A DNA stretch of 64,000 nt from Kiritimatiellia bacterium (GTDB taxonomy: Bacteria > Verrucomicrobiota > Kiritimatiellia > RFP12 > UBA1067). The position numbers were made by a program, and so were the translations under genes. Location: the NCBI GenBank assembly GCA_017406465.1, contig JAFQYM010000029.1:1-64000 (forward strand). The letters run 5' to 3'. A model generated the notes under the pieces. It had not been told where the DNA came from. It did not search any database and saw only the letters and a program-made list of their open reading frames with translations. Every line of letters starts with the position of its first letter. The stretch's first letter is position 1. Shown piece after piece: positions 18,027 through 24,098 of this stretch.

Positions 18027-21000
18027 TCAGTTGATTATGAACACAAGACCCTTGGGCTTGACATCAAGAACGATATTGCCGGTTGTTTCGTCAACCGAAA
18101 TGCCATCCACCCAGTCCGGCGCACCTTCGGCAAGCGTTACATTGGCGCCGGCAAAATTGCCGCCGGAGGTGAGAACGTTCTTGCCGCTCTTGGCGCGCTT
18201 GCCGTTTTCCGAAGTAATCTTGACAACGATATTCTTGTTATCGCCAAGCGTCACGTTCTTGTTCGTCAAATCCAGCACCGGCGCGTTGCGTGTAGAATAG
18301 TTGAAGCCGAGACACGCGCCGTCGGCAAGCGTCAAATCGCCGCCTATCGCCACCGTGCCCGACCCGGCGACAGCCAGCGTCGCGCCGCTCGCCACGGTTG
18401 TGGTGTCCGTCGTGAGCAACGCGCCGGGCGCGAACGCCAATGTCGCCGTATCCGTCACCGTCACCGGCGGCTGGTCGGTGTTGCTTGCCACGCTGTTCAC
18501 CAGAACCGTGCCGGAGCCGGCCACCGTGAACGACGGCGTATAGTTGAACCTCGGACGGGCATTCAGCGTAATCTTGCGCCCGACGCCGTTCTCGTCGTCC
18601 GTGTTGAACGTGATGCTGCGGAACATCCACATGTCGAAGCCGTCGGCATTGCCTACGCCGGTCCCGATGGTGAAGTCACCATACCACGGACGTATCGTCT
18701 GGGCATCGTCGTCGACATTCCTTCCGACGCCGAAATACCCCTTGCCGCCGCCGAAGTTGATGCCGCCAGCGCCGAAGTAGTAGGTTCCGTGGCTTGCGCC
18801 GTTGCCATCTCCAAAGTAGAACGTGTAGCCGTCCGTCTTGTTGCACGTGGCTTTCTCGATCTTGAACACGTTCGCGGAGCCAGTGCCGGCGTTGTAGCTC
18901 ACGTATCCGTCCTTCTTGTTCGAACCGGACACCGTGAACTCGTCGGTTATGACATACTCGCCCTTGTTTTGGTAGGAGAGCCGCTTGTCCTCAGGCAGGG
19001 CCACAACGCCATTTGTCACGGCGGCGCCCGTGCCGATGTAGAGCTCCGTCAAATCACCTGCATACGTGATGTGGAGCACAGAATTGTCCGCAAGGCAGTT
19101 GCGCCTGGTGCTGCCCTGATACGAAGCCGTCCATGGACTGCCCGCTTCAGGATAAAGATAGTAGTCGCCGAACATGCAGCGCGAATAGACGGCGGCGGTG
19201 TCGCCGTTCTCTATCGCATATCCCTGTGCGGCATGTGCGCCGCCCGCGAATGTGACATGCGCCTTGGTGAGATCGCCCGTCTCCGCCATCGCGGCCTGCT
19301 TCACCTGTATGTCGCCCGCGAAATAGACTGGCACGTTGATCGTGTGCGAAATGATCGTAGAGAGGTTCGTAATCGCCACAACGCCAAAAATCGCCTCGGT
19401 GCCGTTGATCGTCACCGCCGCAGAACCGGCCGCAAAGGTGATGGACGCGGGGGAGAAGTCCGGAATGTCGCAGACGAGCGTCGCCTCGCCCGCCGCCGCG
19501 ATATGCACGCACGAGCCGTTCGCGGGAACCTGACCGCCCATCCAGTTGTCGCCGTTGCTGAAATTCGTGTTCTCGCCGCCGCCCGTCCAGATGGCGTCGT
19601 TAGCACCCTTCAAGACAATGTAGAGCGTGCCGCCCTGCGCGACGTACACTGGCGTCATGCCCGCCGGTACGGTCGCATTGAGCGTGACATCGAAGTTGTC
19701 CCACGCATCGGCGGAAACAGCGGTCGCAGACTGGATAATCGCGTTGTAGCCCTCGACTAGCGCACCGCCCTCGATGTTGAGCGCGACCTTGTTTTCCGCC
19801 GTCACGCCGTCGAACGCAAGCGCATTCACGGAAAGCGGCAGGACGCCGGCCGTGAACGTCGGGACTCGGAGCGTTGTCCCGCCCGCCATCGTCAGCGTCC
19901 CCGTGACGGGAACCGTGCCGGAGCCGGACTGAACGAGGTAGAACGTCGCCGTGTCCCTGAGCGTCACATTGCCCTTGCCAGGATAGACGCCAGACTTGAC
20001 GGCGACGGTCACGCTGTTGGACGCAACCAGCCCGCCGGTGAACTTGCCCTGCTTGTTGAACGCAAACGTGCCGTTGCCGGCCACGCCCAGACCGCCGGAG
20101 CCGGTCAGGACGTTTGTCGATTTGCTCCCCGTGTTGTTCACCGAGACAGTATGTCCCGGAGCCGTCGGGTCGTCATAGTCCGCCGTATCGACCACGAGCC
20201 CGTTCGCGCCGATGACCGTGCGGCCCGCGCCGTCCTCGCCGCCGTAATTGCTGTTCGTGATGTCAAACTGCCAGTTGCCGGTGCTATGGAAGACGTAGCC
20301 GTTGACCTGGAAGTAGCCGCGCTGCATCTCGATGCCGCAATCGCCGCTGCCGAAAATTATCGTCGCGGTCTTGGCCGGCGTGAAGGCGAAGTCACGCACG
20401 AAGTTGCCGGAATGGTGGTGGATTCCATTGACGCGGAGAACACCCGAAAATCCGCTATTGAAGGTGACTCCGCCATGGTTGTACTGATAGATTCTGTCGA
20501 CTGTGAGGTTGCCGGCGTACGTGCCGAAGATGTTCCCGCTCACATTGAGCGTCAGCTGCTTGATTGCAAGCGTTGAGCCCGCCTCGGCATTGAGGAGACT
20601 TGTGCCGGAGGTCTCGATTTTCGTCCCTGTCGCCGTCACGGTCGCGTTGGCGGCAAGAGTGATGGCCGACGAAAGGCTCCACGTCCCTTGCGTCAGCGTG
20701 TAGTTGCCGTAGAAAGTCGAGTGGTTGGCGGGGAGAGACCCCTTCACGCCGCCGGAAAACTCCACCTCGCCCGTCACGTCGATCGGCGCGTAGGCGTCGG
20801 AGGCGTAGAACTCGACCGGGACGCGGATGACGTGCCGCTCTTCGGCGTAGTTCTTGATCGTCGCCGCGCACGTGATGGTGCCCGTGCCGTCAATCGTCAC
20901 CCTCGCGGAGGTGACGGGGAATGTCATCGAGTTGACGCTCAGCGCAACGTCGCAGTCGAGCGTCGTTTCGGCGGAAACGCTGATGACGACATCATCGTCC

Positions 21001-22631
21001 GCACCCGGCACAGCCTTGCCGAGCCAGTTGTCCACGGACGAAAACTTGCCGTCGTTCGCTCCGCCCGTCCAAGTGGCGGGATTCGTGGCGGGAACCGTCA
21101 GGACGAGCGACGCGCCGGAAACGGAAAGCGCTGCGCCTTCGGGCGCGTTTTCGTCAAGAGCGAATTTCGCCTTGTCGCCCGCTGCGAACTCGCCGCCGCC
21201 GGTAATGGTGATGAGCGGATATGTGCCGCTTGCAATGCTACCCGCATCGTCGAATTTGATCTTTACGGGCTTCGCCGCAGTCGCAGTCAGCGCAAGCGAA
21301 GCGGCGGAAAATGAATCGACGCCAAGTTCGCCGCCGGTGATGGCAAGCGTCGCGCCCTCGCCCAATGTCATCGCCCCGACCGTGCGCGAGACGACCGAGC
21401 CGGTGCGCAGGTTCAGCGTTCCGCCGTCCGTCGCGGCCATATCGGGTGCGGTGGCCGTCAGCGATCCAGAAAGCGCGAGCGTGCTATCCGCGCCATCCAC
21501 CGCGAACTTCGTTGCCGCGTATGTAAGCGAAGACGAATAGGTTCCGTTGGAAACGACAAGCGGGCCGGTAAACGTCATCGTCTTGGCCGAGGAGGACGAT
21601 ACAATACTGTTTACGGTAATCGACCCGTCACCGATCTTGGTAAGGCCGCCCGCGCCCTTCAGGACGGACATGTTCGATCCTGCGGTGAACGACTGGTCGG
21701 ACGGAATATCAATTGTGAGACCGCCAGTTCCAAGTGTATAGATGTCGCCGGAAACGCCGGTGTGCTGCCCTATGAAATTGGCGTCGCTGCCGGACTTGTG
21801 GACTGTCGCGCCATCGAACAGCACTTCCGGCACCAATGACTTATAGGCGTAGATGTTGTTGCACGTGATGTCCGCGCCAGGCCCGAACACGACATGCACA
21901 TAGCTGTTGCCCGCATCGGTGACCCATTTCGAACTTGAAATGTTTGAACCGATGTAGATTTGATCCTTCACGGTAATGGTCGAGTTCGTGACGGCGAAAT
22001 CGACCTTTGCCGTCTTTGCCGGGTACTTTGCCTGGCTTTCGTTTTCCCGTCCGCCGCTGATTCTGAGCTTGCCGTTAGGAACAGAAAGCGTGCTGCCGTT
22101 CTTGACGACGACGGCCACCGACGAATCCTTGCCATTCGCATTAGCATTGTTGTTCCAGAACATGGCGAAATTGAGCGCCACGGCACCGGTACTGGAGCTG
22201 CCATCGTCTGTGATAAACGTTCCGTTGTCGAGCGTGAACTTGCAGTCGCCGTAATGGAACGGCAACAGGGTTCTGCCGTCGCTCGTCCGCGTCTGATGGA
22301 GGACGCCTCCGTCGACGATGTTCCAATCCCAATCGCCATTGAAACCAGGCCCCGCGGCGTAAGTGACTGTCGCGCCGCTCCCGATGGTGTATTTGCCGGC
22401 CGTACTATCGGACGGACTGTTGGAGAGGTTGATTGTGCCGTTCTGGATGATCTTGTCCTTGTAGGCACTGAAAGCCGTCTTGTCGGCGGAAATCGTTTCG
22501 CCGTTCAGATCAACGACTTCATCCGCCAGTGCCGGGAGGGCCGCGCTTGTCGCGACCGCGAAAAGGACGGCGAGGAGATAACCTAGAGTTTTACCCCCCC
22601 CCCTGACAATATTTGCAATTATCGCTTTCAT
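18027..22631 (-). CDS. Giant beta-strand-repeat surface protein with G10 tract in its signal peptide
   Basis: 1534 residues, no recognised enzyme domain. Signal peptide about 1-37 (MKAIIANIVRGGGKTLGY...ALADE). The rest is Gly/Thr/Asn/Ser/Ala-rich beta-helix sequence of the autotransporter-associated beta-strand type, with two copies of the W-T-G...N-W module (WTGGANDGKFSSVDNW near 520 and WTGGGENTNFSNGDNW near 1014). No barrel domain; the protein ends KGLVFIIN. ATG 22631 has an excellent Shine-Dalgarno (AAGGAGG). Codons 10-13 contain ten consecutive G, a candidate phase-variation tract. Transcribed divergently from a XylR-like regulator, with a strong promoter and direct repeats upstream. Confidence 0.85.
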   Translation of the reverse strand: MKAIIANIVRGGGKTLGYLLAVLFAVATSAALPALADEVVDLNGETISADKTAFSAYKDKIIQNGTINLSNSPSDSTAGKYTIGSGATVTYAAGPGFNGDWDWNIVDGGVLHQTRTSDGRTLLPFHYGDCKFTLDNGTFITDDGSSSTGAVALNFAMFWNNNANANGKDSSVAVVVKNGSTLSVPNGKLRISGGRENESQAKYPAKTAKVDFAVTNSTITVKDQIYIGSNISSSKWVTDAGNSYVHVVFGPGADITCNNIYAYKSLVPEVLFDGATVHKSGSDANFIGQHTGVSGDIYTLGTGGLTIDIPSDQSFTAGSNMSVLKGAGGLTKIGDGSITVNSIVSSSSAKTMTFTGPLVVSNGTYSSSLTYAATKFAVDGADSTLALSGSLTATAPDMAATDGGTLNLRTGSVVSRTVGAMTLGEGATLAITGGELGVDSFSAASLALTATAAKPVKIKFDDAGSIASGTYPLITITGGGEFAAGDKAKFALDENAPEGAALSVSGASLVLTVPATNPATWTGGANDGKFSSVDNWLGKAVPGADDDVVISVSAETTLDCDVALSVNSMTFPVTSARVTIDGTGTITCAATIKNYAEERHVIRVPVEFYASDAYAPIDVTGEVEFSGGVKGSLPANHSTFYGNYTLTQGTWSLSSAITLAANATVTATGTKIETSGTSLLNAEAGSTLAIKQLTLNVSGNIFGTYAGNLTVDRIYQYNHGGVTFNSGFSGVLRVNGIHHHSGNFVRDFAFTPAKTATIIFGSGDCGIEMQRGYFQVNGYVFHSTGNWQFDITNSNYGGEDGAGRTVIGANGLVVDTADYDDPTAPGHTVSVNNTGSKSTNVLTGSGGLGVAGNGTFAFNKQGKFTGGLVASNSVTVAVKSGVYPGKGNVTLRDTATFYLVQSGSGTVPVTGTLTMAGGTTLRVPTFTAGVLPLSVNALAFDGVTAENKVALNIEGGALVEGYNAIIQSATAVSADAWDNFDVTLNATVPAGMTPVYVAQGGTLYIVLKGANDAIWTGGGENTNFSNGDNWMGGQVPANGSCVHIAAAGEATLVCDIPDFSPASITFAAGSAAVTINGTEAIFGVVAITNLSTIISHTINVPVYFAGDIQVKQAAMAETGDLTKAHVTFAGGAHAAQGYAIENGDTAAVYSRCMFGDYYLYPEAGSPWTASYQGSTRRNCLADNSVLHITYAGDLTELYIGTGAAVTNGVVALPEDKRLSYQNKGEYVITDEFTVSGSNKKDGYVSYNAGTGSANVFKIEKATCNKTDGYTFYFGDGNGASHGTYYFGAGGINFGGGKGYFGVGRNVDDDAQTIRPWYGDFTIGTGVGNADGFDMWMFRSITFNTDDENGVGRKITLNARPRFNYTPSFTVAGSGTVLVNSVASNTDQPPVTVTDTATLAFAPGALLTTDTTTVASGATLAVAGSGTVAIGGDLTLADGACLGFNYSTRNAPVLDLTNKNVTLGDNKNIVVKITSENGKRAKSGKNVLTSGGNFAGANVTLAEGAPDWVDGISVDETTGNIVLDVKPKGLVFIIN
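22594..22603 (-). repeat. Homopolymeric G10 tract in coding sequence
   Basis: Ten consecutive C on the plus strand, read as G10 in codons 10-13 of the surface-protein gene (Arg-Gly-Gly-Gly). Slippage by one base would shift the frame within the signal peptide. The frame is open with ten G. Confidence 0.85.
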
Positions 22632-22682
22632 TATCGTGCCTCCTTGTAAATACTGAACTTGCCTATAACTTGATTTTTCTAC

Positions 22683-22711
22683 ATTGTAGCAATTTATCCG
22701 CCCGCTGTCAA
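22683..22711 (-). promoter_or_regulatory. Near-consensus promoter of the surface-protein gene
   Basis: On the minus strand TTGACA (22706-22711), 17-nt spacer, TACAAT (22683-22688). The predicted start is near 22676, giving a leader of about 45 nt that carries AAGGAGG before ATG 22631. Confidence 0.8.
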
Positions 22712-22877: not shown

Positions 22878-22906
22878 TTGACTGCGGCACGATGCTGTTG
22901 TATAAT
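22878..22906 (+). promoter_or_regulatory. Promoter of the XylR-like regulator gene
   Basis: TTGACT (22878-22883), 17-nt spacer, TATAAT (22901-22906) on the plus strand. It excludes any start codon before about 22912 and supports the GTG at 22920. Confidence 0.75.
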
Positions 22907-22919
22907 GTCTAATGTCGAC

Positions 22920-24098
22920 GTGATAAAGGGACAGAACAGAAGACTGGACGGACGGAAGGCGAAGACCATTGCGTTCGTCTCGGAAAGCATCCTTCCGACG
23001 CAGGTCGGCAGGATGCTCGACTGTGCGGCGGCCTACGCACAGGGGAACCGAAGCTGCTCCATACGGCTTGTGCTTGAGAAACTGTTGAGCCGGCAAGGCA
23101 TTTTCGCCGGCTGCGACGGCATCCTTGCGGACGTCTACAAGCCAGCCACCATTGAATTGCTCAAGGCGACGGGATTGCCGATAGTGGCAACCACGATTCT
23201 TGGCGATCCTGACATCGCATGCGTAGACTTCTCCCCTGAAGCAACCGGAGCAATGGCGGCGGAATGGTTCCTGCAACGCCGATTCACAAGTTTCGCGTTC
23301 TGCGGAACTTACGGCAACCTGTTCTACGACCGGCTTGGGGAGGCTTTTTCGACGACTTTGAGAAATGCGGGCTTCGACTGCATCACTTGCGACCGCAAAA
23401 AAATCAACGAGACGGCGCTCCGGACGCGTGCAGTCTCCGTTCCGTCATATCTGGACAAATGGATTCCGACGCTGCCGCCGAGAACTGCGGTCTTCTGTAT
23501 ACACGACCGCAGGGCGTCGCTTGTGATTGAATCGTGTCTGCGCCTCGGACGGGCCGTTCCGGGCGACATAGCCGTAATGGGCCGGCACAACGACGTAGCG
23601 ATCTGCGCGTGCTCGCCAATGGCCATTACCAGCATCGACCCGAACTTCCGCCTGCAGACCTACACCGCCTTGCAGCTCCTGGAGGAGATGATCGACAATC
23701 CGGACAGTGCGAAAGAGAAGAAGTCCATACTCATTCCCCCGCTCGGCGTCGTCGAGCGCGAATCAACGAACGTCTATCCAGTCGACCCGCCGTGGCTCGC
23801 GAAAGCCCTCTCGCTCGTAGACGACAACATAAACCGGCGCGTCACGCTTGAAGACCTCGCCGCCGCCGCGAACATCTCGCAATCGGCGCTGCAGAACGCA
23901 ATCCACAAGACGTTCGGCATGAGCGCTAACAAGTACATCCTCTCGGTCAAGATGCGCGAGGCGAAGCGACTCGTAGACCTCGGCGGCTACAGCGTAAAGG
24001 AGCTTGCCGCAAGAACCGGCTTCTCGACGCAAAGCTACTTCACCCGCGCCTACACCGCCTACTACGGCCACCCGCCCAGCGCCGACCTGCAGAAATAG
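22920..24098 (+). CDS. XylR-like transcriptional regulator (sugar-binding domain plus AraC HTH)
   Basis: About 392 residues. The N-terminal two thirds is a LacI/periplasmic-binding-like sensor (FDGILADVY-type and LPIVATTILGDPDIACVDFS segments, then GDIAVMGRHNDVAICACS near the hinge); the C-terminal 100 residues form an AraC double helix-turn-helix (LEDLAAAANISQSALQ and VKELAARTGFSTQSYFTRAY). This is the XylR arrangement, typical of sugar-responsive activators. The frame is open upstream to 22878, but -35 and -10 boxes lie there, so GTG 22920 is chosen; its leader would be only about 8 nt. The only plus-strand gene of the window; divergent to the surface-protein gene and convergent with the MFS transporter. 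Confidence 0.88.
   Translation: MIKGQNRRLDGRKAKTIAFVSESILPTQVGRMLDCAAAYAQGNRSCSIRLVLEKLLSRQGIFAGCDGILADVYKPATIELLKATGLPIVATTILGDPDIACVDFSPEATGAMAAEWFLQRRFTSFAFCGTYGNLFYDRLGEAFSTTLRNAGFDCITCDRKKINETALRTRAVSVPSYLDKWIPTLPPRTAVFCIHDRRASLVIESCLRLGRAVPGDIAVMGRHNDVAICACSPMAITSIDPNFRLQTYTALQLLEEMIDNPDSAKEKKSILIPPLGVVERESTNVYPVDPPWLAKALSLVDDNINRRVTLEDLAAAANISQSALQNAIHKTFGMSANKYILSVKMREAKRLVDLGGYSVKELAARTGFSTQSYFTRAYTAYYGHPPSADLQK

Follow-up and report, generated by a model that had tools for sequence, protein, structure and literature searches.

Phase variation through G tracts has been described chiefly in mucosal pathogens. In porA and opc of Neisseria, a poly-G tract in the promoter, located between the −35 and −10 boxes, alters promoter spacing. 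In pilC of Neisseria gonorrhoeae and Neisseria meningitidis, a homo-guanine tract is located in the signal-peptide region and gives rise to on/off switching by frameshift (PMC5354566); the tracts of Neisseria pilC comprise G9-20 (PMC5953494). Among Campylobacter autotransporters, capD has its poly-G tract within the coding sequence and capC in the promoter region, and the capC tract length did not account for gene inactivation in the published analysis (PMC7168839). In Akkermansia muciniphila, G8/C10 tracts were proposed to phase-vary capsule genes (PMC3048395).

The window analyzed here is a 64-kb stretch of DNA in contig 57 (C57) of a 3.5 Mb, 102-contig MAG from a Kiritimatiellae genus of the ruminant gut. 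It contains a G10 tract near the start of a gene for a large surface protein, with the following features, listed with the evidence used:

22594-22603, minus strand: G10 homopolymer in codons 10-13 (R10 G11 G12 G13), proposed slippage switch (sequence)
18027-22631, minus strand: 1534-codon gene of a secreted/surface protein, start at 22631, end at 18027 (open frame; ON at n = 7, 10 and 13)
22524-22631, minus strand: signal peptide MKAIIANIVRGGGKTLGYLLAVLFAVATSAALPALA with the shared N-terminal module MKxIIxxIxRGGGKTLNYLLAxxFA (sequence comparison)
22639-22645, minus strand: ribosome-binding site AAGGAGG (from sequence)
22683-22711, minus strand: predicted sigma-70 type promoter TTGACA - 17 - TACAAT, 11/12, extended −10 (from sequence)
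18027-18059, minus strand: C-terminal tail KPKGLVFIIN plus stop; the ending KPxGxxhhhhK/R/N* is common to sibling genes (sequence)

An earlier note on this DNA had placed ten Gs in codons 10-13 of a 1534-residue gene open at this length and had noticed no other G tract as long. All of this was borne out: ten Cs on the plus strand, equivalent to ten Gs on the minus strand, were found at exactly this position, the gene has an ATG start, a ribosome-binding site and 1534 codons in a frame that is open at n = 10, and G10 is the sole G/C run of ≥8 in the window. The tract begins 28 nt past the A of the ATG in the layout aGG GGG GGG GGt. Recomputing the product for each tract length gave the full protein at n = 7, 10 and 13, and peptides of 12, 15, 13 and 16 amino acids at n = 8, 9, 11 and 12, respectively; both wrong frames end at most 5 codons past the tract, ahead of the hydrophobic core of the signal peptide. 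In the 1534-codon gene, a change by one unit flips the frame and truncates the product early, as expected of a contingency locus, and the ten Gs lie above the G/C homopolymer length of ≥9 that such loci are expected to have, the threshold being that of PhasomeIt (PMC5953494). The predicted promoter is a strong one with near-perfect −35/−10 boxes, and the signal peptide is typical.

The arrangement resembles pilC in that the tract lies inside the signal-peptide region, where it would switch the frame. The 1534-aa protein has no homology to PilC, and whereas pilC exists as one or two paralogues of a pathogenic species, the tracts found here occur in the signal peptides of several giant surface proteins that are not homologous to one another and belong to an uncultured lineage from the gut; some of these proteins share a module. 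With capC and capD the lineage has in common poly-G in the coding sequence or promoter region of large surface proteins, but no autotransporter β-barrel was detected in the 1534-aa protein. A type V autotransporter identity was considered and found no support: Pfam and NCBIfam gave no C-terminal barrel translocator, and the protein ends in the short tail KPKGLVFIIN; no Pfam or NCBIfam family scored above the cut-off at all. Akkermansia muciniphila belongs to a related broad phylum and has homopolymer tracts as well; those affect capsule enzymes instead of surface-protein signal peptides, and the module is not shared.

The signal peptide would be cleaved between ALA and DE. Short hydrophobic C-terminal tails that end in K, R or N are common to the secreted proteins (e.g. 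KPMGTLFFVR, KPMGTVIIFK and GTGLLIFVR) and possibly serve for sorting or anchoring through an unknown export route. They were located as follows:

Window: 18030-18059, and the ends of the genes at 1450, 27752 and 31379
Other contigs: C52, C77, C78, C92 and C93

The surface-protein gene adjoins a divergent neighbor (22878-24098, plus strand) encoding an XylR-like regulator (Peripla_BP_3 and AraC-type HTH), which could act on the surface gene on top of the switch.

Composition alone makes one G10 in a window of 60% GC no more than slightly unusual: the mean number of G10 tracts in dinucleotide shuffles of this DNA was 0.14, and 11 of 100 shuffles had at least one. As a single G10 is not remarkable, the judgement rests on position, frame and comparison. 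At the level of the whole genome, eight runs of exactly G8 and two of exactly G9 were counted next to 19 runs of G≥10, where a decaying run-length distribution predicts at most ~2 (P ~1e-12 or less for 19). This hump at G≥10 is unlike ordinary run-length decay.

The position of such tracts was evaluated with 155 distinct tracts of ≥9 Gs from the same genome and about a dozen relatives, which were picked regardless of position. Early signal-peptide location was defined as 9-66 nt past an ATG with ribosome-binding site, followed by a hydrophobic stretch, with a long open frame that slippage of at most one base would reach. On the G strand, 21 of the 155 tracts were located in this way (12 ON, 9 OFF), on the C strand none; among control runs of G4-G6 in the same DNA, the share was 9 of 1734 (P ~3e-17). 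The enrichment of tracts in early signal-peptide codons is about 30-fold and confined to the coding strand, and most of the 21 tracts cluster 24-32 nt past the ATG. Their near 1:1 mix of ON and OFF is the residue expected of a wandering tract length. In two of the 21 cases (L149, L210), a second possible start just past the tract makes the switch less certain. About 80% of the sampled G tracts of the genus lie neither in signal peptides nor in promoter spacers.

The promoter spacers form a side class to which the window gene does not belong, and which resembles Neisseria porA and opc. Allowing ≤2 mismatches in 12 for the promoter boxes, 9 of the 155 tracts were located between −35 and −10 boxes versus 0 of 3020 random placements:

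Same genome as the window, C14:75661-75670 (L004): G tract between −35 and −10 boxes, upstream of a signal-peptide gene
Relative G023, L138, L154, L183, L191, L193, L194, L196 and L223: tracts in the promoter spacer, upstream of signal-peptide genes

The tract lengths at these loci are G9-G12, and those of G023 mostly follow a recurring TTGACA-G(9-12)-TAAATGATA layout. Judged by this layout, transcriptional phase variation is probable.

Within the genome of the window, at least seven sibling genes contain a tract at the same place, 28-51 nt past the ATG, four of them assembled ON and three OFF:

C11: n = 10, ON, 1460 aa
C52: n = 11, ON, 1368 aa
C55: n = 10, ON, at least 783 aa
C92: n = 10, ON, 1296 aa
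C77: n = 8, OFF, 2675 aa if n = 10 (2660 codons open downstream)
C78: n = 11, OFF, 671 aa if n = 10 (656 codons open downstream)
C48: n = 11, OFF, 622 aa if n = 10 (606 codons open downstream)

In each OFF sibling, one unbroken downstream frame would be joined by one tract length. Several tract-bearing siblings encode other large secreted proteins, and some have the module of the window gene in common, even at the DNA level. In contigs C47 and C48, a G11/G12 tract lies 42 nt from the contig end (C47:1-54 and C48:8381-8434; L044, L045), as would happen if mixed tract lengths had made a de Bruijn assembly (k ~55) branch; a search of the bin for a partner contig of these ends, giving two tract lengths at one locus, found none. 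C47 (n = 12), which stops at this distance past its tract, was given no ON/OFF call.

G tracts of ≥10 were present in 58 of 61 genomes of the genus and also in the wider family. One genome of another genus of the same family (G113) has ~360 such tracts in 2.5 Mb, far more than its relatives, an excess that may reflect either an artefact of assembly or a very large number of switches. Named records that contain the module derive from yak omasum, sheep colon and a rumen MAG series. The module together with a tract was found in four species at lengths of 8, 10, 12 and 13; the copies include n = 10, 10 and 12 (OFF) in G049, n = 13 (ON) in G022 and n = 8 in G032. A reversed control pattern of the module gave zero matches, and a Phocicoccus match in the scan of the whole collection was taken as chance.

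The earlier note had proposed to compare the tract length in related genomes. For the set as a whole the lengths do differ, as expected of homologous copies of contingency loci: the C52 gene (C52:29674-29684, L019) and its counterpart G021:C134:16619 (L101) are near-identical both before and after the start, with n = 11 (ON) versus n = 13 (OFF), and the siblings span n = 8-13. The comparison turned out differently for the window gene itself, whose sole orthologue among the 61 genus genomes (G024, 53% identity over 1026 residues) carries AGGGGTAGGGGT, with length and frame unchanged and the homopolymer absent. As this interrupted tract does not switch, switching is not retained at every orthologue, and judging from this sequence the switch at this locus was either lost or never gained in the G024 lineage. 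Interrupted tracts were also found in G049 (AGAGGGGTGGGC) and in the C93 copy of the genome of the window, where a T breaks the tract (AGGGGGTGGGGT); in all three the amino acids are altered and the ON frame is retained. The C52/G021 gene is near-identical across two species and its upstream flank is divergent, which suggests a recent horizontal transfer of this putatively phase-variable gene.

The likely phase variation put forward in the earlier note is supported by the ON and OFF paralogues with intact frames, the 11 versus 13 homologue pair, the interrupted copies in the ON frame and the ~30-fold positional enrichment. On this comparative evidence, G10 is very probably a contingency locus subject to translational phase variation by slipped-strand mispairing, and one member of a multi-locus set. 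Mispairing at replication would add Gs to G10 or remove them and so shift the frame of the 1534-aa surface protein, which would be ON at 10 or 10 ± 3 and OFF at other lengths; in the OFF state, translation would terminate 1-5 codons past the tract, ahead of the hydrophobic part of the signal peptide.

An improbable alternative is a tract whose DNA length changes only slowly and on which transcriptional or ribosomal slippage occurs: RNA polymerase would slip on G10, and each cell would mix in-frame and out-of-frame mRNAs. Homopolymers of about ten bases, the size of G10, are slippery for polymerases too, and this process would also account for the intact downstream frames behind OFF tracts, but it leaves unexplained the DNA lengths of 8-13 among siblings and homologues and the interruptions that keep the ON frame. 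Transcriptional slippage may take place alongside DNA slippage. It is likewise improbable that the Gs serve to encode a functional Arg-Gly-Gly-Gly in the n-region of the signal peptide, with the DNA homopolymer being incidental. R-G-x-G is often kept, even in interrupted copies; yet GGG accounts for just 12% of the Gly codons in the window genes and is used across the whole tract, n = 13 copies encode four Gly, and signal peptides of unrelated sequence have the tract at the same codon. Since the residues encoded mid-tract in interrupted copies are W, R, V or I and many copies are out of frame, this protein-only explanation was rejected. An assembly or sequencing artefact (two-color Illumina poly-G, homopolymer miscalls) behind true lengths that are all in frame has a negligible chance. 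In its favor, the genome is a 102-contig MAG, and in other MAGs some G tracts are located exactly at contig ends (L104, L106, L122, L123). Against it, the window tract lies inside its contig and is flanked on either side by unique coding sequence, OFF lengths recur at many loci in assemblies made independently, tracts in early signal-peptide codons are confined to the coding strand (21 versus 0) and interrupted copies have a 10-nt segment at the same place. The contig-end tracts of other MAGs were left out of the evidence, since they can arise as poly-G artefacts. A MAG consensus can miscall a homopolymer by one base; the pattern across many loci and independent assemblies does not hinge on any single length.

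Under slipped-strand mispairing at the DNA level, poly-G tracts would act within the signal-peptide coding region of a number of giant surface proteins that otherwise differ, some with a common N-terminal module, so that cells of one population would display different combinations, like a mosaic. The slippage rate and the reversibility within one population are what we infer, and the benefit would probably be varied adhesion to glycans or particles, or escape from phage or host immunity. The chances are about even that the module is a portable signal-peptide cassette with its own poly-G switch, copied or converted among unrelated giant surface proteins and complemented by promoter-spacer switches, with some species having ~15-40 G tracts per genome, a set the size of that of Neisseria.

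None of the papers searched mentions both Kiritimatiellae and phase variation. The mechanism is an established one; what appears to be new is the lineage, the extent and a shared signal-peptide module that carries the tract. If true, a large set of switches on giant surface proteins of uncultured gut commensals would mean that bet-hedging at the cell surface is widespread among members of the gut community. It is also a caution that genes with a broken-gene annotation in these MAGs may merely be OFF.
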